Below are positions 43,323-61,384 of a stretch of 64,000 nt of DNA, in pieces. Each line of letters opens with the position of its first letter. Position 1 is the first letter of the stretch. Source of the stretch: Acidovorax sp. SRB_14. Its GTDB lineage: Bacteria > Pseudomonadota > Gammaproteobacteria > Burkholderiales > Burkholderiaceae_C. The notes below the pieces were generated by a model that was given only the letters and a program-made list of their open reading frames with translations, was not told where the DNA came from and ran no database searches. The stretch is from the NCBI RefSeq assembly GCF_012932145.1, contig NZ_MWOK01000007.1:1-64000 (forward strand). Direction: 5' to 3'. The translations under genes and the position numbers were made by a program.

Positions 43323-44576
43323 ATGCCCACACCCCACCTCACCGCTCCCTCCGACGTGCGCATGCGCGGCTTCTCGCAGCGCGCGGAGGTTGCATCCGCA
43401 CTGGCCTGGATTGATGCCAACACGCCGCTTTTGTCCAGCGAAACCGTGGCAGTCGAAGAGGCCAGTGGACGTGTCCTCTCCCAAGACGTGATCGCCCCCA
43501 TCGCGGTACCCGAGTTCGACCGCGCAGCCATGGACGGGTACGCGCTGCACGGCAAAGAAACCATGGGTGCCGGCGAATACAACCCGCTGGAATTTCCACT
43601 GGTGGGCGAAGCGTGGCCTGGTCGGCCTTTCGAAGGCGACGTGTTGTCTGGTACCGCCATCCGCATCATGACGGGAGCACCGGTGCCCTGCGGATGCGAC
43701 GCCGTAGTGCCCGCCGAATACGCGAGCGAGCATGAGGGGCGCCTCACCATCACTCGCGCGGTCGCTCCGGGGCAGCACGTGGGTCACGTTGGCGAAGACA
43801 TAGCGCGCGGTAGCACGGCGCTCCACGCCAGTCGTCGACTGCGCCCGCAGGATGTGGGGTTGGTCGCGTCGTTGGGCATAGCGAGCCTGGAGGTGGTGCG
43901 TCGGCCGCGGGTGCGTCTGCTGGTCACCGGGAACGAAGTGCGCCCCCCCGGAAGCCCCAAAGGCCCCTACGAGATCTATGACGCCAATTCGATAACATTG
44001 CGCGGCCTGGTGGCGCGGGACGGGGGGGTGCTCGAATCGCACCAGCGGCTGGGCGACGATGCGGGGACGATCGAGCAAGCGCTGCAGGCCCCCGGCGCTG
44101 ACGTGGTGCTGGTTTCTGGTGGCTCGAGCGTCGGCGCAGAAGACCATGCCCCTCGTGTGTTGGCCAAGGTGGGCGAGTTGGCGATCCACGGCGTTGCCAT
44201 GCGTCCGTCCAGCCCGGCTGGCATGGGGCGCATCGCAGGCGCACTGGTATTTTTGTTGCCCGGCAACCCGGTGTCGTGCCTGTGCGCGTACGACTTTTTT
44301 GCAGGCCGCGCAGTCCGCACCATGGGCGGTCGGCCTGGAGACTGGCCATATCGCACACAACGTGCCACGGTGGCGCGCAAGATCGTCTCGCAAGTGGGCC
44401 GCGTTGACTATGTGCGCGTGCGGCTCGGCGCCGACGGCGTGGAGCCCCTCGCACTGTCGGGGGCCTCCATGCTGAGCACCACCACGCGGGCCGATGGTTT
44501 CGTGATCGCGCCCTCTGAAAGCGAAGGCTATGGCCCCGGCTCCGAAGTGAGCGTCTATCTCTACGAATGGCCGTGA
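43323..44576 (+). CDS. moeA: Molybdopterin molybdotransferase MoeA
   Basis: A 417-residue MoeA that inserts molybdate or tungstate into adenylated molybdopterin. Motifs: FDRAAMDGYAL (about 60-70), GTAIRIMTGAPVPCGCDAVVP, VRLLVTGNEV, VVLVSGGSSVGAEDH and LPGNPVSCLCAYDFF. It opens the formate-dehydrogenase island. The stop lies 10 bases inside the next MoeA gene. Two MoeA genes side by side may reflect separate metal or sensing roles. Confidence 0.94.
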   Translation: MPTPHLTAPSDVRMRGFSQRAEVASALAWIDANTPLLSSETVAVEEASGRVLSQDVIAPIAVPEFDRAAMDGYALHGKETMGAGEYNPLEFPLVGEAWPGRPFEGDVLSGTAIRIMTGAPVPCGCDAVVPAEYASEHEGRLTITRAVAPGQHVGHVGEDIARGSTALHASRRLRPQDVGLVASLGIASLEVVRRPRVRLLVTGNEVRPPGSPKGPYEIYDANSITLRGLVARDGGVLESHQRLGDDAGTIEQALQAPGADVVLVSGGSSVGAEDHAPRVLAKVGELAIHGVAMRPSSPAGMGRIAGALVFLLPGNPVSCLCAYDFFAGRAVRTMGGRPGDWPYRTQRATVARKIVSQVGRVDYVRVRLGADGVEPLALSGASMLSTTTRADGFVIAPSESEGYGPGSEVSVYLYEWP

Positions 44577-46492: not shown

Positions 46493-46614
46493 GGCAGCGG
46501 CACAGCCACCCCACCCGGGTTGCGCGCTCCACCTATGCTCTGCTGCTCATATGGTGCATTGAAGAGCAATCTTCGAAAATCGGCCCATCCTTGTCGTCAG
46601 AGGTACCCACACCC

Positions 46615-47454
46615 ATGGTCTCGCGCAAACGCCTCGTCCTCATCGCCCTCCCCGCCATTGTTGCCACTGTGCTGCTCGCGCCCTTGGCTCAGGCCCAGAG
46701 CAAGTTCATCGTGATGGCCTCGACCACCTCCACCGAGCAGTCGGGCCTGTTCAAGCACCTTCTGCCACAGTTCACGCAGGCCTCCGGCATTGAGGTGCGG
46801 GTGGTGGCTGTGGGCACCGGCCAAGCGCTGGACATGGCCCGGCGTGGCGACGCCGATGTGCTGTTCGTGCACGACCAGCCCGCCGAGGAAAAGTTTGTTG
46901 CCGAGGGATTCGGACTGGAGCGTCGGCCGGTCATGTACAACGACTTCATCCTGGTGGGCCCGAAAGCCGACCCGGCCGGTGTTCGCGGCAACAACATCGC
47001 TAACGCGCTCAAACGGCTGCGCGACACGGGCATGGCCTTCGTCTCGCGTGGCGACAAAAGCGGAACACATTCCGCCGAATTGCGCCAGTGGAAGGTGGCC
47101 GGCGTGGACCTCGCCGCCGCCAAGCCAGCCGGCTACAAAGAGTGCGGCTGCGGCATGGGTCAGGCGCTCAACATCGCGGCCTCCACCAACAACGCCTACG
47201 TGCTCTCCGATCGCGGCACCTGGCTCAACTTCAAGAACCGTGGCGATTTGGCCATCGTCGTCGAAGGTGACAAGCAGTTGTTCAATCAATACGGCGTGAT
47301 GGTTGTGAACCCGGCCAAGCATCCGCACACGAAGAAGGACCAGGCGCAGGTCTTCGCCGACTGGGTCGTTTCGCGCGCTGGGCAGGATGCCATCGCCTCG
47401 TACAAGATCGGCGGCGAACAACTCTTCTTCCCGAACGCCAACCCAGGCGTGTAA
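46615..47454 (+). CDS. tupA: Tungstate ABC transporter substrate-binding protein TupA
   Basis: A 279-residue periplasmic protein with a signal peptide (VLIALPAIVATVLLAPLAQAQS) and the oxyanion motif MASTTSTEQSGLF that marks TupA rather than ModA. DVLFVHDQPAEEKFV, GTHSAELRQWK and NAYVLSDRGTWLNFKN fit the family. ATG 46615 gives a proper signal; the earlier in-frame start does not. Its membrane/ATPase partner is the fused TupBC gene at 59900, about 12.4 kb away beyond the fdh genes. Tungstate is the expected ligand; molybdate cannot be excluded. Confidence 0.92.
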   Translation: MVSRKRLVLIALPAIVATVLLAPLAQAQSKFIVMASTTSTEQSGLFKHLLPQFTQASGIEVRVVAVGTGQALDMARRGDADVLFVHDQPAEEKFVAEGFGLERRPVMYNDFILVGPKADPAGVRGNNIANALKRLRDTGMAFVSRGDKSGTHSAELRQWKVAGVDLAAAKPAGYKECGCGMGQALNIAASTNNAYVLSDRGTWLNFKNRGDLAIVVEGDKQLFNQYGVMVVNPAKHPHTKKDQAQVFADWVVSRAGQDAIASYKIGGEQLFFPNANPGV

Positions 47455-47509
47455 ACGCTGTTGCACAGCTGCGGAACGCGAAACACTGCGGAGTATTCAG
47501 CTTTTGCCC

Positions 47510-48628
47510 ATGCCCTCTTCACGCCGCGGCATCCATCTGCGCTATACCTTCGAGACCGCCAAAGCCACCAGTCAGCTGGGGGCCGAAATCGAAAACCCGC
47601 TTTTCGACCTGCTTTCGGCGCTTCAGGCCCACGGCTCCATCAGCGCGGCCGCGCGCGCTCAGAACGGCTCTTACCGGCATGCCTGGAGCTCGCTCAAGCA
47701 TTGGGAAGATGTGTTGGGCGCGCCCCTGGTGCATTGGGGGCAAGGCAAGCGTGCACGGCTCACCCCGTTCGCCCAGCGCCTCATGTGGGCCGAGCGCCAG
47801 GCGCGCGTGCGCATGACGCCCCATGTGGAGGCACTGCGTGCCGAACTGGCACGCGTGTTCGCGCTGGCCGATGACGCCACGCTGCAGGTGCTGGAGATAT
47901 TCGCCAGCCATGATCTGGGCCTGCCACGGCTGCAGGCCCTGGCCGAGGAATGTGACGGTTTGCACATAGGCCTGCGCTTCGCGGGTAGCCAGGAGGCACT
48001 GCGTGCACTCAAAGATGGCCGCTGTCGCGTGGCCGGCTTTCATGTGGCGCAGGATGCGGCACCCGACAGCGTGATGGCACGCGCTTTGCGACCGCTGCTT
48101 CAGCCTGGACAGCACAAGCTCATCGGCAGCCATTGGCGGCGTCAGGGCTGGATCTGGCGGCCGGGCGAGCCCCGGCCCGACAGCATCGCGGCGCTGCGCA
48201 CCGGGCGCTGGCGTTTCGTGTCACGCCGACCCGCGTCGGGCACGCGGCTGCTCACGGATCACCTGCTCGAACAAAGCGGGCTGCAGCCAGAACAGGTGCC
48301 GGGCTACACCACGCGCATGGAGGACACGCATGTGGCCGTGGCGGCGGCCATCGCCTCAGGCGCGGCGGACGTGGGCATTGGCATCGAAGCCGCAGCCATT
48401 CAAGCGGGTCTCGTCTTCTCGCCCCTGGTGCACGAAAACTATTACCTGCTGTGCCTGAAGGAAGACCTGGAGACGCCGCCCCTGAGGGCTTTGCGCAAGC
48501 GACTGGCGTCACCGGCTTGGGCCGAGGCGCTGGAGAAACTGCCCGGTTACGGGGTGAATCGGCCGGGCGAGGTGCTTGCGCTCACGCAGGCGCTGGCGTG
48601 GTGGCGCTACACAAAGCCGAAGCAGTGA
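47510..48628 (+). CDS. ModE-like helix-turn-helix regulator with periplasmic-binding-like domain
   Basis: A 372-residue protein. The N terminus is a LysR/ModE-type winged helix (LLSALQAHGSISAAARAQNGSYRHAWSSLKHWEDVLGAPLVHWG, about 38-80). Residues about 124-360 are a PBP_like domain with ALRALKDGRCRVAGFHV, RRPASGTRLLTDHLLEQSG, DTHVAVAAAIASGAADVGIG and LVFSPLVHENYYLLCLK. These match the C-terminal domain of the MoeA fusion in order. It likely senses molybdate, tungstate or cofactor status and controls this island. It ends 3 bases from the convergent mobA stop, with no terminator between. Confidence 0.87.
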   Translation: MPSSRRGIHLRYTFETAKATSQLGAEIENPLFDLLSALQAHGSISAAARAQNGSYRHAWSSLKHWEDVLGAPLVHWGQGKRARLTPFAQRLMWAERQARVRMTPHVEALRAELARVFALADDATLQVLEIFASHDLGLPRLQALAEECDGLHIGLRFAGSQEALRALKDGRCRVAGFHVAQDAAPDSVMARALRPLLQPGQHKLIGSHWRRQGWIWRPGEPRPDSIAALRTGRWRFVSRRPASGTRLLTDHLLEQSGLQPEQVPGYTTRMEDTHVAVAAAIASGAADVGIGIEAAAIQAGLVFSPLVHENYYLLCLKEDLETPPLRALRKRLASPAWAEALEKLPGYGVNRPGEVLALTQALAWWRYTKPKQ

Positions 48629-48631
48629 TGC

Positions 48632-49258
48632 TCAACGCTGCAGTTGGTGCAACTCGTCCAGCGTATTGGCGTTGAAGAACGCGGCTGCGTCGTCGAACGG
48701 CACTTCCAGCGTGCGATGCTGCGCTGTCCACTTGTCGAACTTGCGTTCGCCCGCGTGCAGGAAGGCCACCAGGCTTTCAATCAGGTCGGTGCGCAACAGG
48801 CAGAAGACGGGCTGCGGGCGCAGCTGGCCGTCCTCGCGCGTCGCCACCATGGCGATGTCGGCACCCTGCTCGGCTGCAGCCGCGGCCAGACGTTCAACGA
48901 AGTCCTCGGGAAAACCAGGCGTGTCGCAAGGCACGGTGACCAGCCAGCCGGTCTCCGCATGCTCCAGTCCGGTGAGCAACCCCGCCAGCGGCCCGGCGTA
49001 GCCCTCGGTGGAATCGGGCCACACGGGCACGCCCATGGCCTCGTAGGCCGACAGGTTGCGGTTGGCGCTGATCATGCTCGCGCCCACGTGCGGCTGCAGG
49101 CGCAGCAGTGTGTGCAGCGCAAGCGGCATGCCGCGATGGTTCTGCAGCCCCTTGTCCACCCCGCCCATGCGGGTGCCCCGGCCGCCTGCAAGCACCAAGC
49201 CGGTGATGTCTTCGCGTGCAATCGTGCTTATCGTTGTGTTCATGGTGCTCTTGCTCAT
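48632..49258 (-). CDS. mobA: Molybdenum cofactor guanylyltransferase MobA
   Basis: A 208-residue enzyme adding GMP to the cofactor to give the bis-MGD form needed by formate dehydrogenase. GTP-binding [19 protein letters not shown] lies near residues 15-33, SANRN near 63, and [16 protein letters not shown] near 105. The ATG at 49258 overlaps the chaperone stop (ATGA); a second ATG at 49243 is possible. It is the last gene of the minus-strand maturation operon. Confidence 0.94.
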
Positions 49259-49860
49259 GCTTCCAGCAGGTCGAAGGCCTGCGTCTCGATCTGCACGAAG
49301 GCCCGCGTCATCGCCGCGACGTCGCGCCACAAGCTGGCGCTCGGCTGCTCGTCCACGGCCCGGCACAACGGCTCGATCCATGATTGCACATGGACGCGGA
49401 AGAAGCGACGTTGCTGCTCCAGGTTGCTCACACCAGCGTCATCGCCCGCGATCAGATAGCGCATCACCTCGAAGACGTAAGCGATGTGGTCCTCGGTCTC
49501 GAACTGCGCCGTGTCGCGCGTCAGGCCCAGCGCTGCCAGATCGGTGCGCAACTGCGCCAGCGGCTTCTCATTGACGAATCCGGCCAGAAAGAAGGACGCA
49601 TAGGGAAAGACCTCGGGCTTCCCCACGCCCTGGAACAGCGCCGCGAATTCGGCCGCGGCCGATTCCACGCTGGCTTCGCGCATGCGCGCGACCAGCGCCT
49701 GCCATGGGGCCTCCAGATAGCCACCGGCCTCGGGGGCTTCGGTCACGGCGACGCGGAATTGGTCCAGCAGCGCCGCATCGGGCGGTGCCAGCCACAGACG
49801 CGCCAGCAGGCCATAGAGTTCGGCGCGGGCAATCTCTTCGCTGAAAGGTTCGGTTTTCAC
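49255..49860 (-). CDS. TorD/DmsD-family formate dehydrogenase chaperone
   Basis: A 201-residue all-helical chaperone of the TorD family: [17 protein letters not shown] at the N terminus, [34 protein letters not shown] near residues 70-100 (the Y/ASxY-like binding region) and [17 protein letters not shown] (the E-x2-H-x2-F-E motif). Such proteins bind Tat signal peptides and deliver cofactor; here FdhA is the likely client. The GTG at 49860 overlaps the polyferredoxin stop by GTGA. Confidence 0.9.
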
Positions 49861-52028
49861 AGATCGGTGATGCGTTGTTCGTTGGGATTGGAATACATGT
49901 CGACGACGCGGCAGTCCGAGCACATTTTCAGGCGCTCGGCAGCCGCGCCCTGGAAGGCTGCGTGGCCCGCAAGCTTGGTGATCATGTTCTCGATAGCGCG
50001 CAACGTCCCGAAAGGTTTGGCACAACGAACGCAATGGAACGGCGGTGCTTCGTGTAGCACCCGCGAGCGGGTGCGCGCGCGGCCGCCATCGGCCAGCAGC
50101 AGACGCGGCTCGAGCCGAATCGCATCTTCTGGGCAGGTGGTCTGGCACAGGCCGCACTGCACGCAGTTTTTTTCGATGAACTTGAGCTGCGGCTGATCGG
50201 CGTTATCGGCCAGAGCGCTGGACGGGCAAGCGCCCACACAGGAAAGGCACAAGGTGCACTTGCTGCCATCCACGCGCACGCCTCCATACAGCGCACCGGG
50301 CGCGGGCAGCGCGATCGCATCGGGAGCAATGAAAGTCTGGGGCAGCTGATCCAGCAGATGCGCAAGCGCAAGTTCGAGAGTCCCGCGCTTGTCAGACTGA
50401 ACGGCGAAAGTAGCGGGTTTGGCCACGCCCTGAGCGGCAGGCGCGCGCAGCGCGTCGTCCAGAGCGCTCACGCTGGAGGCGGTGATCAGCCGGAAATGCT
50501 CCCCTGCGTAACCCAAACCATGCAAGATCGCCTGCGCTTGCGCCATCTGCTCGGACAGCGCCTGCAGGTACTGAGGCGCCTCCGAATCACCGACCAGCAC
50601 CCAAACCTGGTTTGCGCCCTGAGCGAAGGCAGCGAGCCAGACGTCCAGACCGACGCTGGCGCTATGCCACAAGGACAGCGGCAGCACACGCGACGGCACG
50701 CCATGCGCCCGGCCCGCACTCGCGGCGCGGCCTAGGGCATTGATGCTGGCCGCTCCCTCCTCCTGGCTGTGCAACAGCAGCGCGGCATCGCGACCACCAG
50801 CCGCGGCATACGTGCCCAGCAACGTGCGCACGCGCTTGCCCAGGTCGGCAGGCCTGGGATATCCATAGCTCAGCGCCCCGCTCGGGCACACCGTGCCGCA
50901 GGCACCGCAGCCCATGCACAGATGGGGCTCAACAACAATGCCAGCTTTGGGATGGGCGACAGCACCGCGCCCACGGCCCGCCGTTTTTCCCTTGAGAGAC
51001 GCGTCAGAGCGGATGGCCTGGGTGGAGCAGACATCGATACACGCCGAGCAGCCAATTTGCTGGTTGCGGCTGTGTGCGCAAAGTCGCTGTTCATAATGAA
51101 AAAACTTGGGCTTCTCAAACTCACCCACCATCTCGCGCAATTCGAGGACAGCTTGCGCAAGCTCGGCTTCGCCAGACACGTGGAAATACCCTTGCGGCGG
51201 TTCGTAGATGGCGCACGCAGGTGTGCTGCCAAGATCCAGCACCAGGTCGAATTGCCCCTCGTCGATGCGAGCACTGCGATTGAAATCGATCGCGCCTGCC
51301 GCTTCGCAGGCAGCCACACAGTCGCGGTGCGCTTTGCATCGTCCAAGATCAACCTGGTAACCGAAGTCGATTGCGCCCTCCGGACAGGCGGCAATGCAGG
51401 CATTGCAACGCGTACACAGATCCAGATCAATGGGGTTGGTGCTTTCCCAACCCGCTTCGAACGCACCAAGCCAACCTGTCAGGTACGTGAGGCGGCCACG
51501 CATGACGACACGCTCATGGGCCTGCGGCAACTCGCCACCATCGATCAGCAGTGTCAAATTTAGCTTGTCGCCCAGCATGGCCGCAGCACCCTCGGCCCGG
51601 GCGCCCGGACCAATGATCAGGCACCGACCAGCCGAACGGTAACTCACCGTGGCCACAGGCTCGGGCGGCGGCAACTGGGCGGCAGCGATCAGTGCCGCCA
51701 GCTTGGCGGTGGATGCCGCGCCGTCGCGCGACCAACCGCCGGTTTCGCGGATGTTGACGAAGCGAATCGGCCGCTCGTTCGTTGACGGCGCACCTTCGGT
51801 CTGTTCGGACAGTTCCAGGAACAGGCGGCTTTCCTGCGTGCAGGCGACCAGCAGGTCCTCACCCGACTTCGCGGCACGCTGAAAGGCAGGCGCCTCGCGC
51901 CGGCAGAGAACGGAATGGACGTCGCCGACGCCGTCAGCACTGGCCCCTGGGGTCTTCGCCAGAACCCGGATCAGGGCCGGGCGATCCAGGGGCATGGTGC
52001 GATTGCAATCGCAGATCAGGGTCTTCAT
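49857..52028 (-). CDS. Polyferredoxin of the formate dehydrogenase island (multi-4Fe-4S)
   Basis: A 723-residue cytoplasmic iron-sulphur protein without signal peptide, starting MKTLICDCNRTMPLD. Cys motifs in order: CTRCNACIAACP, CKAHRDCVAACE, CSACIDVCS, CMGCGACGTVCP, CTLCLSCVGACP, CVQCGLCQTTCP, then a C-terminal CVRCAKPF and CSDCRVV pair that looks zinc-like. At least six cubane clusters are possible. Similar genes accompany fdh loci with DUF3305/DUF3306 in other proteobacteria, where they may store electrons or assist assembly. Its 5' end overlaps the DUF3306 gene by 95 bases. The function is not established. Confidence 0.9.
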   Translation of the reverse strand: MKTLICDCNRTMPLDRPALIRVLAKTPGASADGVGDVHSVLCRREAPAFQRAAKSGEDLLVACTQESRLFLELSEQTEGAPSTNERPIRFVNIRETGGWSRDGAASTAKLAALIAAAQLPPPEPVATVSYRSAGRCLIIGPGARAEGAAAMLGDKLNLTLLIDGGELPQAHERVVMRGRLTYLTGWLGAFEAGWESTNPIDLDLCTRCNACIAACPEGAIDFGYQVDLGRCKAHRDCVAACEAAGAIDFNRSARIDEGQFDLVLDLGSTPACAIYEPPQGYFHVSGEAELAQAVLELREMVGEFEKPKFFHYEQRLCAHSRNQQIGCSACIDVCSTQAIRSDASLKGKTAGRGRGAVAHPKAGIVVEPHLCMGCGACGTVCPSGALSYGYPRPADLGKRVRTLLGTYAAAGGRDAALLLHSQEEGAASINALGRAASAGRAHGVPSRVLPLSLWHSASVGLDVWLAAFAQGANQVWVLVGDSEAPQYLQALSEQMAQAQAILHGLGYAGEHFRLITASSVSALDDALRAPAAQGVAKPATFAVQSDKRGTLELALAHLLDQLPQTFIAPDAIALPAPGALYGGVRVDGSKCTLCLSCVGACPSSALADNADQPQLKFIEKNCVQCGLCQTTCPEDAIRLEPRLLLADGGRARTRSRVLHEAPPFHCVRCAKPFGTLRAIENMITKLAGHAAFQGAAAERLKMCSDCRVVDMYSNPNEQRITDL

Positions 52029-52602: not shown

Positions 52603-52607
52603 TGCGT

Positions 52608-53135
52608 TCAGCGCCGCTCTTCGGGCGCTATAAAAGAGGCTGGGCGTTTGCGCTTCTTGGGCTCGGGACGGTAGTTGGCATCGACGTAGCCTTGCAAGGC
52701 CTCCCTCACACCTATATCCAGCGGACAGTTGTCAACCCGCTCCTGGGCATCGAGCCAGCGTCCCGCTTCGTTGTATGACAGGGTCACAATCTCGGGCCAA
52801 GCCAGCGACGGGTCCGCATGATCGGTGCGCCACATCACGAACCACACGGGGGATCCAGACGTGAGGTTGAGGTAATAGCCCTCCGCTTCATCCCGATGGA
52901 GAGTCACGGGCAGATGGGGGAAAAGCCATTGTGCGCACTGACCATCGTCGCGCAGCACCCGGCGCTCATCACCGAATCCACCATCGTCAATAACCACTTC
53001 TGCAATATTGAAGCGCCAATCTTCCCAGCGGGTTGGTTGCCGCAAACGGTCAATACGTACAGCGACGCGCATAGAAGGGGGAATGTCGTTCGAGAACACT
53101 GTAGGAATATGCACCTTGGCAGAGCACAGGGTCAA
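52608..53135 (-). CDS. DUF3305 protein of the formate dehydrogenase island
   Basis: A 175-residue protein with the DUF3305 pattern: MRVAVRIDRLRQPTRWEDWRFNIAEVVIDD, LHRDEAEGYYLNLTSGSPVWFVMWR and EIVTLSYNEAGRWLDAQERVDN. The annotated start is TTG at 53135; the ATG at 53072 (residue 22) would begin directly at the conserved region and is equally possible because neither has a good ribosome site. First gene of the minus-strand maturation operon, divergent from the structural fdh genes. Confidence 0.85.
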   Translation of the reverse strand: MTLCSAKVHIPTVFSNDIPPSMRVAVRIDRLRQPTRWEDWRFNIAEVVIDDGGFGDERRVLRDDGQCAQWLFPHLPVTLHRDEAEGYYLNLTSGSPVWFVMWRTDHADPSLAWPEIVTLSYNEAGRWLDAQERVDNCPLDIGVREALQGYVDANYRPEPKKRKRPASFIAPEERR

Positions 53136-53264: not shown

Positions 53265-53492
53265 ATGTCCCTGCCAAACCCCCCGCGTGATTTGCACCAG
53301 CCCGCTCTTTCACGCCGCACTGTCTTCGCCGGAGCGGGAGCCGCGGGCGCGACCGTTGCTGCAGCCGCAGTACTTCCTGGAATGCTGCAAAAACCTATTT
53401 CCTCCGTTGCCACAGCCTCTTTCAGCGCCAGTTCGGGAGGCTACCAGCTAACGGAACACGTCCAGCGCTATTACGAGACCGCCAAGGTCTGA
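53265..53492 (+). CDS. Small Tat-signal protein of the formate dehydrogenase region
   Basis: A 75-residue protein consisting mainly of a Tat signal (SRRTVFAGAGAAGATVAAAAV, about 16-36) followed by a short mature part ending TEHVQRYYETAKV. It matches the small 'formate dehydrogenase region TAT target' type. ATG 53265 has AGAGG 8 bases upstream. It is 16 bases from fdhA and is presumably exported with the enzyme. The role is unknown. Confidence 0.88.
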   Translation: MSLPNPPRDLHQPALSRRTVFAGAGAAGATVAAAAVLPGMLQKPISSVATASFSASSGGYQLTEHVQRYYETAKV

Positions 53493-53508
53493 GCGCAAGG
53501 AGTCCGCC

Positions 53509-56484
53509 ATGCTGCTTAGCCGCAAAAAAACGTCTTCCGTCGCTACGCCCGTGTACTCGGGCCTGGTCTCCCATCTCGCGCGCGGGCTGGCACATGCGGT
53601 GCCGACCATTGATCGCCGGGCCTTCTTGCGTCGCTCAGGCCTAGGGGTCGGCGCGGGAATCGCTGCCTCGCAGCTTTCGCTCGTCAAGAAGGCCGAGGCC
53701 GCCGATCCCGCCCCACAGACCGGCACTGGCAAGGTCGAGGTCAAGCGCACCGTATGCGGTCACTGCTCGGTAGGCTGCGCTGTGGATGCAGTGGTCGAAA
53801 ACGGTGTGTGGGTGCGCCAGGAACCAGTCTTCGACTCGCCCATCAACTTGGGTGCGCACTGCGCTAAAGGTGCTGCACTGCGCGAGCACGGCCATGGCGA
53901 GTTCCGTTTGAAATACCCGATGAAGCTCGTCAATGGCAAATACGAACGTATCAGCTGGGACCAGGCCCTTACAGAAGTCAGCGCCAAACTACTTGAACTG
54001 AAGAAGGCCAGCGGCCCCGACTCAGTCTTCGTGGTGGGTTCATCCAAGCACAACAACGAACAGGCTTATCTACTGCGCAAGTGGATGTCCTTCTGGGGCA
54101 GCAACAACACGGATCACCAAGCCAGAATCTGTCACAGCACCACCGTCGCCGGCGTCGCGAACACGTGGGGTTATGGGGCGATGACCAACTCTTACAACGA
54201 CATGCAGAACTCCAAGGCGGCGCTCTACATCGGCTCCAACGCCGCTGAGGCGCACCCGGTGTCGATGTTGCACATGTTGCATGCCAAGGAGACGGGCTGC
54301 AAGATGATAGTGGTCGACCCTCGCTTCACGCGCACGGCAGCGAAGGCCGACGAGTACGTGCGCATCCGCTCGGGCTCCGACATTGCCTTCCTCTTTGGCG
54401 TGCTCTACCAGGTGTTCAAGAACGGCTGGGAAGACAAGCGGTACATCGAGGACCGCGTCTATGGGATGGACAAGGTACGCGAAGAAGTGCTGGCCAAGTG
54501 GACGCCCGACAAGGTCCAGGAAGTCTGCGGTGTCGATGAAGCCACTACCTTCAAGGTCGCCAAGATCATGGCGGAGAACCGCCCCAGCACACTGGTGTGG
54601 TGCATGGGCCAGACCCAGCACTCCATCGGCAACGCAATGGTGCGCGCCTCGTGCATCCTGCAGCTGGCGCTGGGCAATGTTGGTGTGTCGGGCGGCGGCG
54701 CCAATATCTTCCGAGGCCACGATAACGTGCAAGGTGCGACCGACGTGGGCCCGAACCCCGATTCGCTGCCCGGCTATTACGGCCTGAGCGAAGGTTCCTT
54801 CAAGCACTTCGCGGCCACCTGGGGTGTGGACTCCGAGTGGATCAAGCAGCAATACGCGCCGGGCATGATGACCAAGCCAGGCATCACAGTGTCACGCTGG
54901 ATCGATGGTGTGCTCGAGAAGAACGAGCTGATCGACCAGGACAGCAACTTGCGCGGCCTCTTCTTCTGGGGCCACGCGCCCAACTCGCAAACGCGCGGCC
55001 TGGAGATGAAGACCGCGCTTGACAAGTTGGACCTGCTGGTCGTGATCGACCCTTTCCCCAGCGCCACCGCAGCCATGGCCGCCATGCCCGGCAAGACTGG
55101 TGACCTCAACCCGAATCGCGCGGTCTACCTGCTGCCGGCCAGCACGCAGTTCGAAACCAGCGGCTCGGTAACGGCCTCCAACCGCTCGCTGCAGTGGCGC
55201 GAGAAGGTGATCGATCCACTGTGGGAAAGCCGCAGCGACCACATGATCATGTACCAACTGGCCGAGAAGCTGGGCTTCGGCAAGGAACTTGTCAAGAACT
55301 ACAAGATGCAGAAAGTGAAAGGCCTGGACGAGCCCATGCCCGAGGACATCCTGCGGGAGATGAACAAGTGCGTCTGGACCATTGGCTACACCGGCCAGAG
55401 CCCCGAGCGGCTCAAGGCGCACATGCGCAACATGAACGTCTTCGACGTGAAAACGCTGCGCGCCAAGGGCGGCATCGACAAGGCAACGGGCTACTCGCTG
55501 GACGGCGACTACTTCGGCCTGCCCTGGCCCTGCTGGGGCACGCCCGAGATGAAGCACCCAGGCACGGCCAACCTGTACGACACCAGCCAGCACGTGATGG
55601 ACGGCGGCGGCAACTTCCGCGCCAACTTTGGCGTGGAGCGCGAGGGCGTCCCGCTGCTGGCCGCCGATGGATCGCACAGCAAGGGTGCCGACCTCACCAC
55701 CGGCTATCCAGAGTTTGACCACCTGCTGCTCAAGAAGCTGGGTTGGTGGACTGAACTCAGCGAAGCCGAGCAAAAAGCCGCCGAAGGCAAGAATTGGAAA
55801 ACCGACCCCACGGGTGCGATCATCCGCGTGGTCATGAAAAACCATGGCTGCCATCCGTTCGGCAACGCCAAGGCGCGCGCGGTGGTCTGGAACTTCCCCG
55901 ACCCGATCCCGCAGCACCGCGAGCCCATCTATAGCACGCGCTCTGATCTCGTCGAAAAGTACCCCACGCACGAGGACAAAAAGGCCTTTTGGCGCCTGCC
56001 GACCCTCTACAAGTCACTTCAGGACAAGAACAAGGACATCGGCAAGACCTTCCCGTTGATCATGACATCCGGCCGCTTGGTCGAGTACGAAGGCGGGGGC
56101 GAGGAAACGCGTTCCAACGCTTGGCTCGCCGAGCTTCAGCAGGAGATGTTCGTCGAAATCAACCCCAGGGCAGCCAACGACCGGGGCATTCGCAACGGTG
56201 AGTTCGTTTGGGTGAAGACCCCCCCCATGGCGGCCGTGCCCGATTTCAAGGGCCTGAAAGTGCGCGCCCTTGTGACCGAGCGCGTCGACGCGGGCACCGT
56301 GTTCTTGCCTTTCCACTTCTCTGGGCGTTGGGGCGGCATTGACCTTGCGCAGTACTACCCCGAGGGCGCCAAGCCAATCGTACGGGGTGAGGCAGTGAAC
56401 ACCGCCACCACCTACGGCTACGACAGCGTCACGATGATGCAGGAAACCAAGACCACCGTGTGCCAGATCGAGAAGGCTGCATAA
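53509..56484 (+). CDS. fdhA: Formate dehydrogenase catalytic (alpha) subunit, Mo/W-bis-MGD
   Basis: A 991-residue periplasmic enzyme oxidising formate to CO2. Tat motif DRRAFLRR (35-42) with GLGVGAGIAA; Fe-S ligands Cys83, Cys86, Cys90 and Cys118. The metal-coordinating position is Cys208 in QARICHSTTVAG, encoded by TGT rather than the Sec codon TGA. Further motifs: NTWGYGAMTNSYND, WCMGQTQHSIGNAM, GGGANIFRGHDNVQGATDVG and the C-terminal MGD-binding domain with TSGRLVEYEGGGEETRSN. Nearby tup genes suggest tungsten may be the metal. It is followed after 11 bases by fdhB. Confidence 0.97.
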   Translation: MLLSRKKTSSVATPVYSGLVSHLARGLAHAVPTIDRRAFLRRSGLGVGAGIAASQLSLVKKAEAADPAPQTGTGKVEVKRTVCGHCSVGCAVDAVVENGVWVRQEPVFDSPINLGAHCAKGAALREHGHGEFRLKYPMKLVNGKYERISWDQALTEVSAKLLELKKASGPDSVFVVGSSKHNNEQAYLLRKWMSFWGSNNTDHQARICHSTTVAGVANTWGYGAMTNSYNDMQNSKAALYIGSNAAEAHPVSMLHMLHAKETGCKMIVVDPRFTRTAAKADEYVRIRSGSDIAFLFGVLYQVFKNGWEDKRYIEDRVYGMDKVREEVLAKWTPDKVQEVCGVDEATTFKVAKIMAENRPSTLVWCMGQTQHSIGNAMVRASCILQLALGNVGVSGGGANIFRGHDNVQGATDVGPNPDSLPGYYGLSEGSFKHFAATWGVDSEWIKQQYAPGMMTKPGITVSRWIDGVLEKNELIDQDSNLRGLFFWGHAPNSQTRGLEMKTALDKLDLLVVIDPFPSATAAMAAMPGKTGDLNPNRAVYLLPASTQFETSGSVTASNRSLQWREKVIDPLWESRSDHMIMYQLAEKLGFGKELVKNYKMQKVKGLDEPMPEDILREMNKCVWTIGYTGQSPERLKAHMRNMNVFDVKTLRAKGGIDKATGYSLDGDYFGLPWPCWGTPEMKHPGTANLYDTSQHVMDGGGNFRANFGVEREGVPLLAADGSHSKGADLTTGYPEFDHLLLKKLGWWTELSEAEQKAAEGKNWKTDPTGAIIRVVMKNHGCHPFGNAKARAVVWNFPDPIPQHREPIYSTRSDLVEKYPTHEDKKAFWRLPTLYKSLQDKNKDIGKTFPLIMTSGRLVEYEGGGEETRSNAWLAELQQEMFVEINPRAANDRGIRNGEFVWVKTPPMAAVPDFKGLKVRALVTERVDAGTVFLPFHFSGRWGGIDLAQYYPEGAKPIVRGEAVNTATTYGYDSVTMMQETKTTVCQIEKAA

Positions 56485-56495
56485 GGAGACTGACC

Positions 56496-57092
56496 ATGGC
56501 GCGAATGAAATTCATCTGCGACGCCGAGCGTTGCATTGAGTGCAACGGCTGCGTGACCGCATGCAAGGCCGAGAACGATGTTCCCTGGGGGGTGAACCGG
56601 CGCCGTGTAGTCACGCTGGGAGACGGCGAGCCGGGCGAAAAGAGCATCTCGGTGGCTTGCATGCACTGCAGCGATGCGCCCTGCATGGCCGTGTGTCCGG
56701 TGGATTGCTTCTACCGCACGGACGAGGGCGTGGTGCTGCATGACAAGGACGTATGCATCGGCTGCGGCTACTGCAGTTATGCCTGCCCCTTCGGCGCACC
56801 TCAGTTTCCGAGCAACGGCACCTTTGGCTTGCGCGGCAAGATGGACAAGTGCACCTTCTGCAACGGCGGCCCCGAGGCCAATGGCAGCGCCGCCGAGAAC
56901 GAGAAGTACGGTCGCAACCGTCTGGCTGAAGGCAAGCTGCCCGCCTGCGCTGAGATGTGCTCAACCAAGGCCCTGCTCGGCGGCGATGGGGACGTCGTGG
57001 CCGACATCTTCCGCACCCGCGTGCTGCACCGTGGCAAGGGCAGCGAAGTCTGGGGTTGGGGTACGGCCTACGGAAAGCCGAGCAAGTCATGA
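56496..57092 (+). CDS. fdhB: Formate dehydrogenase iron-sulphur (beta) subunit
   Basis: A 198-residue four-cluster ferredoxin subunit: CIECNGCVTACKAEN, CMHCSDAPCMAVCP, CIGCGYCSYACPFGAP, and CTFCNGG with CAEMC. It passes electrons from FdhA to the cytochrome b subunit. ATG 56496 has AAGGAGA 6 bases upstream. The stop overlaps the next start by ATGA. No signal peptide, so it probably travels with FdhA. Confidence 0.96.
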   Translation: MARMKFICDAERCIECNGCVTACKAENDVPWGVNRRRVVTLGDGEPGEKSISVACMHCSDAPCMAVCPVDCFYRTDEGVVLHDKDVCIGCGYCSYACPFGAPQFPSNGTFGLRGKMDKCTFCNGGPEANGSAAENEKYGRNRLAEGKLPACAEMCSTKALLGGDGDVVADIFRTRVLHRGKGSEVWGWGTAYGKPSKS

Positions 57093-57334
57093 AAGACTTT
57101 AAGCTGACTCCCCGAATGACCGTGGTCGCCGCGGCACTGACTGTGCTGCTTAGCGCGTGCGGGGAAAAGCCGCAGACCGCTGGAACGCGCTCCGCCGACG
57201 TCCAAGCCTGGAACGGCGGAGCCCAGACGACCTTCAATGTCCCCGGCTGGGCGCCAGGCGACAAGGTCAGCTGGGAAGAGCAGATCAAGCAGCGCAATCG
57301 TAGCCAGAACGAGTACGTGCGCATGGCGCCTTGA
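57089..57334 (+). CDS. Small lipoprotein in the formate dehydrogenase operon
   Basis: An 81-residue protein with a signal and lipobox (TVVAAALTVLLSACGEK, Cys about residue 24) and a short mature part ending SWEEQIKQRNRSQNEYVRMAP. It overlaps fdhB by ATGA and precedes fdhC by 22 bases, so it is an operon member. I do not recognise the family; it may anchor or stabilise the complex. Confidence 0.85.
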   Translation: MKDFKLTPRMTVVAAALTVLLSACGEKPQTAGTRSADVQAWNGGAQTTFNVPGWAPGDKVSWEEQIKQRNRSQNEYVRMAP

Positions 57335-57356
57335 GATTGATGCGGAGGCCCTCACG

Positions 57357-58520
57357 ATGAATATGGCATTCTCTCGCTGGTTGGCTGCGGGTCTGCTGAC
57401 CATCGCCAGTGCCTGGGTGCAGGCGCAATCGCCCACATCTTTACCTGCAGCGCCGCCTGTCTCCACAGCAGACAAGGCCAGTGGCCCACCCGCAGACTTT
57501 GTGGTGCCCGCCGATCCAAAACCGGATGAAAACAATGCTGCCCGAGCGAAATCGCAACCGGGCAACAATGCGCCCTTCTGGCGCAGTGTTCGTCAATCCG
57601 GTGAAGTCGAGGGTGTGACCAACCTCCCCGGCGTCGAAAAAGGCGTGCTGATTCAGCGTTTCGTGACTTATCCCGCCTCTGACCACACCAACGCTGGCGA
57701 AGCGTGGCGCCAGGTACGCAATCGCGTGATCATTCCCTACGGGGGCTCGCTCATGCTGATCGTGCTGGTGGCCATCGCCCTTTTTTACTTCAGGCGTGGC
57801 GCTGTAGGCCATGAACACCCTGAAAGCAGAGGAAGGATCGAGCGCTTCACGTCCTTTGAACGTGCTGCACACTGGCTCAACGCGATTGCCTTCGTGCTTC
57901 TCGGCATCTCCGGTGTGGTCATGGCCTTCGGCAAGATTCTGCTGTTGCCATGGATGGGCCATGACATCTTTGGAGCGCTCACGTATGGACTGAAGACGCT
58001 GCACAATTTCGTCGGTCCGCTGTTTGCAGTGTCGCTGCTTGTCATCATTCTCACGTTCCTTCAGGACAACATTCCTCGCGCCTGGGATTGGCTGTGGATC
58101 AAAAAAGGCGGAGGCCTGTTCACGGGCGAGGAAGTTCCGTCGCACCGATTTAACGCAGGCGAGAAAGGTGTATTCTGGATCGGTGCCTTCGTGCTGGGCC
58201 TCACCGTCGTGGCCTCGGGTTTGGTGCTGAACCACCTGATTCCGAACATGCTTTACACACGGGGACAGATGCAAGCCGCTCACATGTTTCATGCCGTTGC
58301 TGCCGTTCTGATGCTGTGCATCATTTTTGGACATATCTACCTGGGCACACTCGGCATGCGCGGCGCCTACCGCGCCATGCGCACCGGCTATGTCAGCGAA
58401 GGCTGGGCCAGGGAGCACCACGAACTGTGGTACGAGGACATCCAGGCAGGAAAGATTCCAGCTCAACGCTCGAGCGCATCGCCTTCCCCAGAGCCACGAA
58501 CGCAGCCGCGCAAGGCATAA
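57357..58520 (+). CDS. fdhC: Formate dehydrogenase cytochrome b556 (gamma) subunit
   Basis: A 387-residue membrane protein. After a signal-like N terminus (WLAAGLLTIASAWVQAQ) comes a roughly 95-residue periplasmic region, then membrane helices starting at GGSLMLIVLVAIALFYF and the FdoI-like cytochrome core: FTSFERAAHWLNAIAFVLLGISGVVMAFG, LHNFVGPLFAVSLLVI and AAHMFHAVAAVLMLCIIFGHIYLGTLG, whose His residues would bind two haems. It moves formate electrons to the quinone. GGAGG lies 8 bases before the ATG. Confidence 0.94.
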   Translation: MNMAFSRWLAAGLLTIASAWVQAQSPTSLPAAPPVSTADKASGPPADFVVPADPKPDENNAARAKSQPGNNAPFWRSVRQSGEVEGVTNLPGVEKGVLIQRFVTYPASDHTNAGEAWRQVRNRVIIPYGGSLMLIVLVAIALFYFRRGAVGHEHPESRGRIERFTSFERAAHWLNAIAFVLLGISGVVMAFGKILLLPWMGHDIFGALTYGLKTLHNFVGPLFAVSLLVIILTFLQDNIPRAWDWLWIKKGGGLFTGEEVPSHRFNAGEKGVFWIGAFVLGLTVVASGLVLNHLIPNMLYTRGQMQAAHMFHAVAAVLMLCIIFGHIYLGTLGMRGAYRAMRTGYVSEGWAREHHELWYEDIQAGKIPAQRSSASPSPEPRTQPRKA

Positions 58521-58551
58521 GGCGCCGCGCCATTGCACACGGAGACGCCAC

Positions 58552-58932
58552 ATGAGATTCCAGATCACCCTGCTGGCTATTGCCCTGTCGGCACTGAGCG
58601 CAAGCACCGCCAATGCCAAGCTGCCTCCAGTGTCCGACGAGGCAAAGGCGAAGGCGGATGAGGCTGCTGCGAAAACCGCATGGAGTGACAAGGTCGCCAA
58701 CTACAAGCTTTGTCAATCCATGGATCGCGTGGCCGCTACCTACCTGGATCGTGCCAGGGCCGCCGGCCACTCGGTTCAGCCGGTGGCCACCCCCCCCTGC
58801 ACCGACCCAGGCCCTTTCAGCTACACACCGGCTGAGCCAAAGCCGATCGAAGCATCCGGTGCGCATTCACCACCGCAAACCGCTTCCACGCCGCCCAGCA
58901 CCACACAACCTGCAGCAGGAACGAAGCCCTGA
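58552..58932 (+). CDS. Small periplasmic protein in the formate dehydrogenase operon
   Basis: A 126-residue protein with a signal peptide (LLAIALSALSASTANAK), a short conserved-looking core (SDEAKAKADEAAAKTAWSDKVANYKLCQSMDRVAATYL) with Cys in KLCQSM and PPCTDPG, and a Pro/Thr-rich tail. GGAGA precedes the ATG. Such proteins appear at this place in several betaproteobacterial fdh loci, as I recall. The function is unknown. Confidence 0.85.
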   Translation: MRFQITLLAIALSALSASTANAKLPPVSDEAKAKADEAAAKTAWSDKVANYKLCQSMDRVAATYLDRARAAGHSVQPVATPPCTDPGPFSYTPAEPKPIEASGAHSPPQTASTPPSTTQPAAGTKP

Positions 58933-59015
58933 TTCCACAGCTTTCCGGACCTGCAAGCGCGCTCGGTTTTGAAGCCGACCTTCGCGCCTACCCGCCCCTG
59001 CCCCACGCGCCGCGC

Positions 59016-59858
59016 ATGACCCATGCCAGCGCAGCTCTGCTGCGCGACATCGAGATCCTGGATCACCACGGCGTGCGGCGGAGCATTCAGATACCCGTTG
59101 AACGTCCGCTCACGGTCTTCGTCGACAAGCGCGAACTCGTTACGCTGATGACGTTGGGTGCGCGTCCCGAATTGCTGGTGCTGGGCTACCTGCTCAACCA
59201 GCGCTTGATAGACCGGTTAGAGGATGTCATTGCTGTCAGCGTGGACTGGGAAGTCGATGCCGCAGCCATCACCACCCGTGGGGGCATCACCGATCTGCAG
59301 GGTCGCACCGCGCACCGCATCGTCACGACCGGCTGCGGCCAGGGCACCGTGTTTGGCGAGGCCATGGACGCGCTCGGCCATATCCGTCTGCCCGACGCAC
59401 GCGCCGCCCGCATCACGCAGGGCCAACTCTACAAGCTGCTTGACAGCCTGCGACAGCGTGACACCGTGCACCGTCGCGCGGGATCAGTCCATGGCTGCGC
59501 ACTCTTCGAAGGCTCACGGATGCTGGTCTTCGTTGAAGACGTCGGGCGACACAACGCCGTCGACACCATTGCCGGATGGATGCTCATGCACGGCGTGAGC
59601 GGCACCGACAAGGTCTTTTTCACCACCGGACGGCTCACGAGCGAGATGGTCATCAAGGCGGCTCAGATGGGTGTGCCCATTGTCGTCTCTCGGAACGGCG
59701 TCTCCGCCATGGGCCATGACCTCGCAACCCGTCTGGGCATGACCCTCTTTGGGCGCGCAGCGAATCGACACTTTTTCTGCTACACGGGCTTCGAGCGCTT
59801 TGATGCGGAACCGGAGCCTTCACCTGAAGCGAATTCGGATCACGCCATCTCGAGCTGA
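59016..59858 (+). CDS. fdhD: Formate dehydrogenase accessory sulphurtransferase FdhD
   Basis: A 280-residue FdhD, which in E. coli passes sulphur from IscS to the Mo cofactor. Features: LMTLGARPELLVLGYLLNQRLI, SVHGCALFEGSRMLVFVEDVGRHNAVDTIAGW and FFTTGRLTSEMVIKAAQMGVPIVVSRNGVSA. The normal CxxC loop is replaced by TTGCGQGTVFG with one Cys, so the sulphur relay may differ. No better start than ATG 59016 exists in frame. Confidence 0.93.
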   Translation: MTHASAALLRDIEILDHHGVRRSIQIPVERPLTVFVDKRELVTLMTLGARPELLVLGYLLNQRLIDRLEDVIAVSVDWEVDAAAITTRGGITDLQGRTAHRIVTTGCGQGTVFGEAMDALGHIRLPDARAARITQGQLYKLLDSLRQRDTVHRRAGSVHGCALFEGSRMLVFVEDVGRHNAVDTIAGWMLMHGVSGTDKVFFTTGRLTSEMVIKAAQMGVPIVVSRNGVSAMGHDLATRLGMTLFGRAANRHFFCYTGFERFDAEPEPSPEANSDHAISS

Positions 59859-59899
59859 ATTGGACGACCGCCAACGGTCTTGATGAAAATCAGCTCCCC

Positions 59900-61384
59900 A
59901 TGAACACCATGTCTGAAAGTTGGGTGTTGGCCTGGCAGCTCATTGCCCATGCCGAACCCGAACTGGTGCACATCGCATCGCTCTCGCTGCAGGTCAGCGC
60001 TACGGCGTGCGTTGTAGGCGCCTCGATCGGCCTGTTGCTAGGTGCTTGGCTTGCGGCGGCACGTTTTCCCGGCCATGCCCTGATCGTATGGCTCGTCAAC
60101 ACCCTGCTGGCCTTGCCAGCCGTGGTGGTAGGCCTGTTTGTGTACCTGCTGCTCTCGCGCTCCGGGCCGTTGGGAGAGTTGGGCATTTTGTTCACTCCGT
60201 CCGCCATGGTGGTCGCACAGAGCGTACTTGTTACCCCCTTGATTGCAGCCCTGTCGCGCCGACTCGTGCTCGCAGCCCTGAACGATGGAGGGAGCCAGTT
60301 GCAGTCGCTGGGCGCCCGCCCACTCACCGCCGCCTTGTTGATGCTGGTGCATGACCGCATGGGCGTGGCCACGGTGCTGCTCACGGCCTTCGCCCGAGCC
60401 ATCGCCGAAGTGGGCGCCGTGATGATCGTGGGTGGAAATATCGCTGGCGTGACACGCGTGATGACCACCACCATCGCGCTTGAGACCAGCAAAGGGGACC
60501 TTGCATTGGCGCTCGCACTGGGCTTCGTGCTGCTGGCCGTGGTGGCCGCAGTCAACGGCGCAATTGGGCTGCTGCACTGGTTGGCCTCCCGCCCGCGGGT
60601 GGGCAATCCGCTGACCAACACCCCCTTGGCGCTTGCTCAACCGGCCAGCGCGCCTCCATCTGCGGCGGAGGCGACACCCCTGGTGGTGATCGAGCGTGCC
60701 ACCGTGCGCTTCGGCAATGTGGTCGCACTGCACGAGGTCTCACTGACGCTCACACGAGGTGAGCGCCTGGTCCTGGTCGGAGCCAACGGCTCGGGCAAAA
60801 CCACGCTGCTGCGGCTGCTGCACGGCTTGCTGCCTTGCGAAGGCCGCTATGAGCGCCTGCCGCTGCGCCCCGAAGGCCATGTCTCGCGCGCCTCCATGTT
60901 GTTTCAACGGCCCTTTCTGCTGAGCCTCTCGGTCTGGCGCAATGTTTGGGTCGGCCTGTGGCTGGCGGGGGTGCCCGGAGCTGAACGCCGTGAGCGATGC
61001 CACCGGGCGCTGGCGCGTGTGGGCTTATTGGAGCACGCTGCTCGGCATGCACGTACGCTCTCGGGTGGCCAGCAGCAGCGCCTGGGAATTGCGCGCGCCT
61101 GGGCGCTGTCACCGGACATCTTGTTTCTGGACGAACCTACCGCCAGCCTGGACCCGAGCGCAAAAAGCGAAATCGAACTGTTGATCGAAGAAGTGGCCGC
61201 CAGCGGTGTCACGATTGTGATGAGCACGCACAACCTGGGCCAGGCCAAACGCTTGGCAACGCGCGTGGCTTACCTTCAAGGAGGGCGGCTTATTGTGCAG
61301 CGCTCGGTGGCGGCATTCTTCCATAGCGAGGACCTGCCTCCTGAGGCCGCCCAGTTTCTTCAAGGCGAACTCGGCTGGCGGTGA
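59900..61384 (+). CDS. tupBC: Fused tungstate ABC transporter permease-ATPase (TupB-TupC)
   Basis: A 494-residue single polypeptide. Residues 1 to about 235 are a TupB-type permease (LVHIASLSLQVSATACVVGASIGLLLG, NTLLALPAVVVGLFVYLLLSRSGPLG, AFARAIAEVGAVMIVGGNI) and, after a Pro/Ala linker, about 258-494 are the ATPase: Walker A VGANGSGKTTLL (about 292), signature LSGGQQQRLGIARA (about 387), Walker B DILFLDEPTASLDP (about 406). No stop or frameshift interrupts the linker. It partners TupA encoded at 46615. Normally these are two genes. Confidence 0.93.
   Translation: MNTMSESWVLAWQLIAHAEPELVHIASLSLQVSATACVVGASIGLLLGAWLAAARFPGHALIVWLVNTLLALPAVVVGLFVYLLLSRSGPLGELGILFTPSAMVVAQSVLVTPLIAALSRRLVLAALNDGGSQLQSLGARPLTAALLMLVHDRMGVATVLLTAFARAIAEVGAVMIVGGNIAGVTRVMTTTIALETSKGDLALALALGFVLLAVVAAVNGAIGLLHWLASRPRVGNPLTNTPLALAQPASAPPSAAEATPLVVIERATVRFGNVVALHEVSLTLTRGERLVLVGANGSGKTTLLRLLHGLLPCEGRYERLPLRPEGHVSRASMLFQRPFLLSLSVWRNVWVGLWLAGVPGAERRERCHRALARVGLLEHAARHARTLSGGQQQRLGIARAWALSPDILFLDEPTASLDPSAKSEIELLIEEVAASGVTIVMSTHNLGQAKRLATRVAYLQGGRLIVQRSVAAFFHSEDLPPEAAQFLQGELGWR

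Follow-up and report, generated by a model that had tools for sequence, protein, structure and literature searches.

The systems described so far that come closest to the locus considered here, a 17-gene formate dehydrogenase (FDH) island at positions 43323-61384 of a 64,000-nucleotide stretch of Acidovorax sp. SRB_14 (contig NZ_MWOK01000007.1, positions 1 to 64,000; "the window"), share different parts of it. In Methylorubrum extorquens, a moeA1-mobB-tupBCA set provides dedicated tungsten uptake and insertion for an aerobic tungsten FDH, and the tungsten insertase there is MoeA1 with MobB (PMC13197769); that system serves the alpha-beta enzyme MeFDH1, whereas the island has no mobB and carries a fusion of MoeA domains with PF12727 (MoeA-PBP). 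The pairing of MoeA-PBP with the tungstate-binding protein TupA, also a feature of the window, is in print as well, with a co-occurrence of 86% and a shared locus in 28% (PMC11733289), but an FDH3 island and a helix-turn-helix (HTH)-PBP regulator go unmentioned in section 8 of that paper. In Desulfovibrio, genetic work reports that the tungsten cofactor of Aor needs both moeA copies, one carrying PF12727, and its authors state that the copies there are not divided by metal; that paper also mentions tupR (PMC10102598), and regulators of tungstoenzymes and of tungstate transport in Desulfovibrio have reportedly been described (Rajeev 2019). The published TorD-fdh operon has DUF3305, DUF3306, a twin-arginine translocation (TAT) protein and fer4 in common with the island, but the passages of PMC4464133 consulted mention neither tungsten genes nor the lipoprotein and the periplasmic protein, all three of which the island has. 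The closest solved enzyme is SoFdhAB of Shewanella oneidensis (9VAP), for which a review reports a Cys-W centre and oxygen tolerance (PMC13397495).

What is new here is the predicted operator of an HTH_1-PF12727 regulator and the recurrence of that candidate site before tup, aldehyde oxidoreductase (AOR) and FDH3 genes. Among the top-ranked results from the open-access literature we recognised no description of the operator, of such a regulator or of its link to FDH3; Rajeev 2019, on Desulfovibrio TaoR, lies outside that comparison.

In total, the observations are consistent with a proposed mechanism, to which we assign a probability of roughly two in three, in which the island is an acquired module for tungsten use with its own uptake, loading and switch. 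TupA and the fused TupBC would import tungstate, and the MoeA/MoeA-PBP tandem would insert it into a pterin made by genes elsewhere, with the PBP domain of the fusion acting as a cytoplasmic tungstate catcher. MobA would then add the guanylates and FdhD the sulphur, while a TorD-type chaperone, perhaps with DUF3305, DUF3306 and the polyferredoxin, would mature the enzyme. FdhA, FdhB and FdhC, together with the TAT protein, would form a periplasm-facing, membrane-anchored FDH3 of the Cys type that passes formate electrons to the quinone pool. We posit that the HTH-PBP protein, whose sensor is of the MoeA-PBP-type family, adjusts tungstate uptake by binding TATG-N10-CATA ahead of tupA; in relatives, the same switch probably governs the AOR too, and often the FDH3 operon. 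Gene identities, their order, the co-occurrence and the recurrence of the motif are direct observations, from which the metal, the ligand, the binding to DNA, the direction of control, the route of the electrons and what the small proteins do are deduced.

We also hold, at odds only slightly better than even, a broader idea: that a ModE/LysR-like HTH joined to a cytoplasmic oxyanion domain is the tungstate switch of the Burkholderiales, with this operator and a regulon of uptake, AOR and FDH3 genes, that in many aerobic Betaproteobacteria the respiratory FDH3 natively uses tungsten, and that the island condenses the core of this system into a single transferable unit. Tungsten is usually sought in anaerobes, and the data predict its use by a common betaproteobacterial formate dehydrogenase. 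With the uptake system, a likely insertase pair, the regulator and a DNA site named, the question of the metal can be taken directly to the bench. How does a cytoplasm discriminate between tungstate and molybdate? This, too, becomes a bench question. CO2 reduction is a use for which oxygen-tolerant tungsten FDHs are wanted, and the parts that an expression host may need can be read off the island.

Distribution and gene order among relatives

Two samples that have a few genomes in common (our own included) were compared: a family sample of 120 genomes, one per genus, and an order sample of 250 genomes. In the family sample the FDH3 beta subunit scored above its cut-off in 61 genomes and DUF3305 in 61, both being present in 60. 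Of the 77 family genomes that gave a TupA-like match at all, 71 were counted as having a strong one (six with weak matches were excluded, and G042, whose gene has an inner stop, was kept). Among FDH3 genomes 57 of 61 had such a strong match, versus 14 of the 59 others (p 7e-16, among the matches listed). The order sample shows the same, with a TupA-like match in 51 of 52 FDH3 genomes versus 19 of 198 others (70 in total; p 6e-36). Linkage was seen less often: a distance of at most 25 kb separates tup from FDH3 in at least 8 of the 57 (family, among the matches listed) and at least 20 of the 51 (order), counts that are lower bounds because of draft contigs. Family linkage and regulator adjacency were assigned by eye. 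Co-occurrence is the rule and linkage the minority state. A reading of this DNA made from its letters alone (the sequence-only reading) had proposed that tup genes unlinked to fdh in relatives would speak against the module it described, and to this the relatives return a mixed answer, strong in co-occurrence and sparse in linkage.

MoeA-PBP, called from a strong PF12727 match in an open frame of at least 560 amino acids with each case examined (among the matches listed), is present in at least 5 of the 120 family genomes, every time at an FDH3 locus with tup. Across 26 genomes of the genus, ours included, the fusion was found in our genome only; all other matches are confined to one of its two parts, MoeA or PBP. 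The cassette is plasmid-borne in Diaphorobacter sp. HDW4B (NZ_CP049906.1) and in Variovorax. The order of the whole island is retained in genomes G018 and G069, and that from moeA to fdhC (or slightly further, to the end of the fetched stretches) in six named records, namely Pseudorhodoferax Leaf274, Leaf265 and P. aquiterrae, Hydrogenophaga 2FB, Variovorax boronicumulans DE0202 and V. dokdonensis; a seventh, Ottowia thiooxydans, follows it up to the contig end. V. boronicumulans DE0202 and G069 may be one locus and hence not independent rows. Because G018, G069 and the named records keep the order, the layout is not a matter of chance, and the comparison across genomes that the sequence-only reading had called for finds the island recurring. 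Its description as portable also holds up, given one fusion among the genus genomes, plasmid copies and the same cassette in several genera: the island is an accessory module and was probably acquired.

G034, G098 and V. paradoxus VAI-C carry the tungsten cassette too, but with its genes differently arranged. What recurs across the FDH3 loci inspected is a core of DUF3305-DUF3306-polyferredoxin-TorD with tat-fdhA-fdhB-lipoprotein-fdhC-periplasmic-fdhD, some parts of which were undetected at single loci. In most of the 15 lipoprotein rows (14 distinct loci) the mature sequence begins like CGEKPQT and finishes like QNEY, and the periplasmic protein, likewise in 15 rows (14 distinct), has two conserved cysteines. 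MoeA-PBP lies beside an fdhF/NADH-oxidoreductase subunit E pair in Methylobacterium radiotolerans pMRAD01, where it also adjoins an ABC transporter, and in Mesorhizobium AR07. Such a pair, or distant fdhA homologues, adjoins the FDH3 core at several loci (L168 1-2585; L021, L023, L025). In Variovorax paradoxus VAI-C, the FDH lipoprotein gene (L168 10753-11004) is labelled CAE-1 beta-lactamase in PLSDB, which suggests a false resistance call because its neighbours are fdh genes.

Uptake and the MoeA pair

The TupA- and TupB-like parts fall below their equivalog cut-offs (Table 1) and are therefore called Tup-type by similarity, residues and context. The site residues of TupA (TTTS, His59, Arg118, Thr124 and Asp170; PMC5517513) are kept relative to 5my5, except that the first Thr is Ser. 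In the first island MoeA, the KPGK oxyanion motif is replaced by RPSSPAG in the window, G018, G069 and VAI-C copies, and MoeA-PBP retains KPGK. The Desulfovibrio requirement for both moeA copies would, by analogy, fit joint action of the MoeA/MoeA-PBP pair. We tried MoeA signatures as an indicator of the metal and rejected them after comparing the signatures of the copies. One MoeA of our genome outside the island (L004, contig C6) has RPGR and NPVA, which resemble the KPGR and Ala said to bias Methylorubrum MoeA1 toward tungstate (PMC13197769).

Contrary to the sequence-only reading, the island is not self-contained, because profile searches found no early pterin-synthesis gene among its 17 genes. 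Of the four MoeA genes in our genome (3.85 Mb, 63 contigs), two lie inside the island and two outside it, and ModA lies outside it as well; a PF01314 search of the same genome gave no AOR match.

The regulator and its predicted operator

The HTH of the regulator matches Pfam HTH_1 at 31.4 bits (cut-off 26.6); on the ModE model TIGR00637 it reaches 39.1 bits, under the cut-off of 98.5, and Pfam lists no excisionase-type domain for the protein. Its PBP domain is 33% identical to that of MoeA-PBP (E 9e-23). In an AlphaFold model built with 33 sequences (predicted local distance difference test, pLDDT, 86.9), the N-terminal part is helical where the profiles place the HTH, and Foldseek ranks whole LysR-type regulators first. 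Among the structures that the sensor part resembles are tungstate-bound ModA (1wod; Z 17.4, 3.4 A over 210), tungstate-bound WtpA (3cg1; Z 16.0) and TupA (3lr1; Z 15.7). Based on these resemblances in a model, the sensor domain likely binds an oxyanion; on the best reading of the whole island, this would probably be tungstate. TaoR/TupR of Desulfovibrio reportedly regulates tupABC and tungstoenzymes; in relatives of the window genome, the operator-like motif precedes tup and aor genes, on which the HTH-PBP regulator may act. The two would differ in how they hold DNA, the domain of TaoR being reportedly excisionase-like and that of the window regulator HTH_1/ModE-like. L013, L014, L028 and L031 encode a second type of HTH-PF12727 regulator (36-39% identical), which does not stand beside tup in those stretches.

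Relatives often carry the regulator gene in divergent orientation to tupBCA. From 35 listed pairs we took the 31 divergent regulator/tup intergenics, leaving out two same-strand pairs and two that were not divergent, and 30 of the 31 contain TATG-N10-CATA, usually as CCTATGCAyG-N4-TTCATAtcG. A weight matrix was trained on those 30 sites alone and made symmetric, with a score of 9 or more taken as a match. By this measure 27 of 57 fdhA upstream regions match (28 of 58 with G055, added later from L166), and 26 of the 27 sites lie 259 to 399 bases before fdhA, around or just ahead of tat. This first scan covered 57 of the 61 FDH3 genomes: G041 went unscanned, the stretches of G055, G101 and G104 contained no start of fdhA, and G017 entered through a second locus. 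AOR (PF01314) is present in 36 of the 120 family genomes, and 24 of 34 AOR upstream regions match, with sites that precede the AFOR_C domain by 1.20 to 1.33 kb, at the expected start of the aor operon. That scan took in 34 of 40 listed matches: those of G008, G090 and G107 were omitted, as were the second ones of G017, G040 and G061, and the second one of G082 was kept.

Is the motif simply what AT-rich promoters produce by chance? We rejected this possibility on the basis of wrong-spacer models and shuffles. Spacers altered by -3 to +4 matched in 0-2 of 58 FDH3 and 0-1 of 34 AOR promoters, save for a +2 signal in AOR (9 of 34), and dinucleotide shuffles reached 9 in 5 of 580 (FDH3) and 3 of 340 (AOR) cases. 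For the fdhA scan, 168 windows inside fdhA gave at most 6.6, and 285 simple shuffles had a 99% point of 8.7 and a maximum of 14.3. Out of 48 real 2.5-kb stretches, one exceeded 9 (12.4, in L014, beside a gene of the second HTH-PBP kind). The +2-base spacer form in AOR promoters (L128-L161) is perhaps a second, overlapping site.

In our own genome the core TATG-N10-CATA occurs exactly once, between moeA-PBP and tupA and 63 bases ahead of the tupA ATG; the reversed control pattern occurs 6 times. Its matrix score is 15.5, and the next-best score within the window, 7.2, is far lower. A matrix match (15.5 to 25.7) precedes tupA at each of the nine loci of the island order that were examined (the window, G018, L173 to L179), and seven of these contain the exact core. 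The FDH promoters of this lineage tell of a different fate: eight of eight aligned loci hold the left half, TATGCT, and seven a right half of GTCATA, ATCATA or GTAATA, and in the window the left half is kept and the right half is shifted by about four bases. Control of fdh by the regulator is accordingly unsupported in the window, and we rejected it there.

Genome-wide, the strict 12-base motif has about 115 sites in the 120 genomes versus about 66 for the reversed control (hand count, among the matches listed). By these counts many single exact matches arise by chance, so that a lone one means little and the weight rests on the promoters. In G085 a site precedes a NuoEF-like gene that probably belongs to a NAD-linked FDH, and further exact matches precede an H-NS-like gene, a flavin oxidoreductase gene, a TPR gene and one unknown gene. 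A separate palindrome, TATGCAACTGGTTGCATA, occurs in G085 (L167 4291), where it lies ahead of a flavin oxidoreductase gene, and in G003, G026 and G082; it is perhaps the site of a different regulator.

Which metal, and which ligand?

By profile scores and similarity, the enzyme of the window is an FDH3-type formate dehydrogenase. FdhA residues 34-990 match chain A of 9VAP at 1267.6 bits, with the next solved relative at 291.5; FdhB matches chain B at 327.8 bits, and the Cys region ARICHSTTVAG is identical in the two enzymes. Unlike the SoFdhAB entry, the window locus brings its own tungsten cassette, and its metal is a prediction from the relative. The sequence-only reading had described a molybdenum or tungsten enzyme; the enzyme type stands, and tungsten is the better reading of the metal because of the co-occurrence with TupA-like genes, the tungsten reported for the closest solved enzyme, and the operator-like motif common to tup, AOR and FDH3 promoters. 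Taken as a whole, that earlier interpretation is supported in part: the module is portable, it is not self-contained, and linkage to fdh gives a mixed picture.

Several observations weigh against the proposed mechanism. On the side of uptake and loading, the TupA- and TupB-like shortfalls noted above are accompanied by the finding that 0 of the 120 family genomes have a TupA-like match above the NF041772 cut-off, and four FDH3 genomes of the family (completeness 76 to 97%) have no strong TupA-like match. The tungstate-biasing residues of MoeA1 are absent from the island MoeA genes and find their counterpart in the MoeA outside it, and in Methylorubrum W-FDH1 stayed active when moeA2 to moeA5 were deleted (PMC13197769). 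The top structural matches of the regulator's sensor domain are phosphate binders (Z 19.0). As for the operator, every one of the 30 training sites (19.7 to 33.7) outscores the site before the window tupA; the strict 12-base pattern has no exact match in our genome (among the matches listed) and, with two mismatches allowed, 3 matches in the window versus 3.4 expected by chance; and the window fdh promoter has no intact site, its best score being -1.4. Scores stay under 9 in 30 of 58 FDH3 and 10 of 34 AOR promoters. FDH3 promoters reach 9 in 21 of 36 genomes with the regulator beside tup versus 6 of 21 elsewhere (Mann-Whitney p 0.008), so that the motif follows the tup-adjacent regulator loosely, and genome-wide the strict pattern is about 1.7 times as frequent as its control. 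Class V members of the AOR family may hold molybdenum (PMC13328260).

Could the HTH-PBP protein sense molybdate or another oxyanion and, in the manner of a ModE variant, repress tup and related genes when molybdenum is plentiful? The score of its HTH region on the ModE model, albeit below the cut-off, and the likeness of the sensor model to ModA with molybdate and to phosphate binders would agree with this. We nonetheless think it unlikely, as the promoters matched are those of tup and of AOR, a family made up almost exclusively of tungstoenzymes (PMC6365974), and no molybdenum enzyme appears among the targets, where six other sites were inspected, one of them an FDH3 promoter.

It could also be argued that the enzyme takes either metal, that TupABC is simply a second oxyanion importer and that the cassette boosts cofactor supply. 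No metal-specific sequence rule exists for most such enzymes according to PMC6147048, and ModA is encoded in the same genome. This is improbable in our estimation: FDH3 tracks the TupA-like gene in both samples, the motif is shared with AOR promoters, and tungsten is the metal reported for 9VAP (PMC13397495).

Might the palindrome be the site of some other factor, global or redox-linked, that happens to act on tup, aor and fdh? Exact matches before unrelated genes (H-NS-like, flavin oxidoreductase, TPR), a strict pattern at only about 1.7 times its reversed control and FDH3 sites in 6 of the 21 genomes where no regulator adjoins tup could be read in this way. We find this distinctly improbable, given that the motif sits in nearly every divergent regulator/tup promoter, as autoregulation predicts, that our genome has a single exact core site, and that the G034 locus, which holds cassette and FDH3 and has no such regulator gene, contains no matrix match of 9 or more.

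That the gathering of genes is a by-product of transfer with no functional meaning, as varying order (G034, G098, G100, G077, G090 and VAI-C) and tup genes placed elsewhere in most family members might suggest, is very unlikely in view of a MoeA-PBP found, in each of the family cases listed, at FDH3 loci with tup and a co-occurrence that is strong even without linkage.

Gene content of the island

Gene identities come from profile searches (Pfam, NCBIfam/TIGR models) that reproduced the list given by the sequence-only reading, apart from a formate_TAT gene that it had missed and from tupB and tupC, which are fused into one gene. The island is flanked by a PilZ gene on the left and by an AMP-ligase gene, on the opposite strand, on the right.

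Table 1. Genes and predicted operator of the island, with window coordinates and the evidence for each
Feature	Position	Strand	Evidence and remarks
moeA paralogue, 417 aa	43323..44576	+	PF03453/PF00994/PF03454; RPSSPAG in place of molybdate-binding KPGK
moeA-PBP fusion, 641 aa	44567..46492	+	NF011068 756.8 bits (cut-off 534); PF12727 C-terminal, oxyanion-binding-like; KPGK present
Predicted operator TATG-N10-CATA	46534..46551		upstream of tupA; core-pattern and matrix scan
tupA-like, putative periplasmic tungstate-binding protein	46615..47454	+	NF041772 232.4 bits (cut-off 400); solved TupA 3lr1/5my5
HTH (LysR/ModE-like) + PF12727 regulator, predicted tungstate sensor	47510..48628	+	profiles; structure model
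mobA, molybdopterin guanine dinucleotide (MGD) synthesis	48632..49258	-	TIGR02665 221 bits (cut-off 151.85)
TorD/NarJ-type chaperone	49255..49860	-	PF02613 90.7 bits; GTG start overlaps polyferredoxin stop
Polyferredoxin, 723 aa	49857..52028	-	several Fer4 stretches
DUF3306 protein	51934..52602	-	PF11748 123.8 bits
DUF3305 protein	52608..53072	-	PF11749 156.9 bits
formate_TAT small TAT-signal protein	53265..53492	+	TIGR02811 34.2 bits, under cut-off 48.45
fdhA, catalytic subunit, Cys type, twin-arginine start	53509..56484	+	9VAP 1267.6 bits
fdhB, FDH3-type beta subunit	56496..57092	+	NF038355 ("FDH3 beta") 331 bits (cut-off 240); 9vap_B
Small conserved lipoprotein	57089..57334	+	lipobox LSAC, CGEKPQT...QNEY; kept in relatives
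fdhC, cytochrome b gamma subunit	57357..58520	+	TIGR01583 150.1 bits (cut-off 115.85)
Small periplasmic protein, two conserved cysteines	58552..58932	+	kept in relatives
fdhD, sulphurtransferase	59016..59858	+	PF02634 248 bits
tupB-tupC fusion (permease + ATPase, one chain)	59900..61384	+	NF038017 209 bits (cut-off 100); NF041773 134.5 bits (cut-off 320); ABC_tran

Two of the small proteins, the lipoprotein and the periplasmic one, had no family match of weight in the profile searches and were judged by their start sequences and conservation. Against PDB sequences, the lipoprotein gave four matches, the best at only E 0.019, and the periplasmic protein gave none up to E 10. A structure model of DUF3305, of middling confidence (pLDDT 72.6; the other four models, 42 to 46), had no PDB match at E <= 0.001; we assign the protein no function, and the sole lead for this protein is a weak match to the curated MobA-DUF3305 fusion family NF011058. 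The end of the DUF3306 gene overlaps the start of the polyferredoxin gene by 95 bases (51934-52028), an overlap annotated identically in Diaphorobacter HDW4B and hinting at translational coupling. Elsewhere in the window, at 29233-29461, lies a tandem pair of glycine riboswitch aptamers (53.9 and 50.6 bits).

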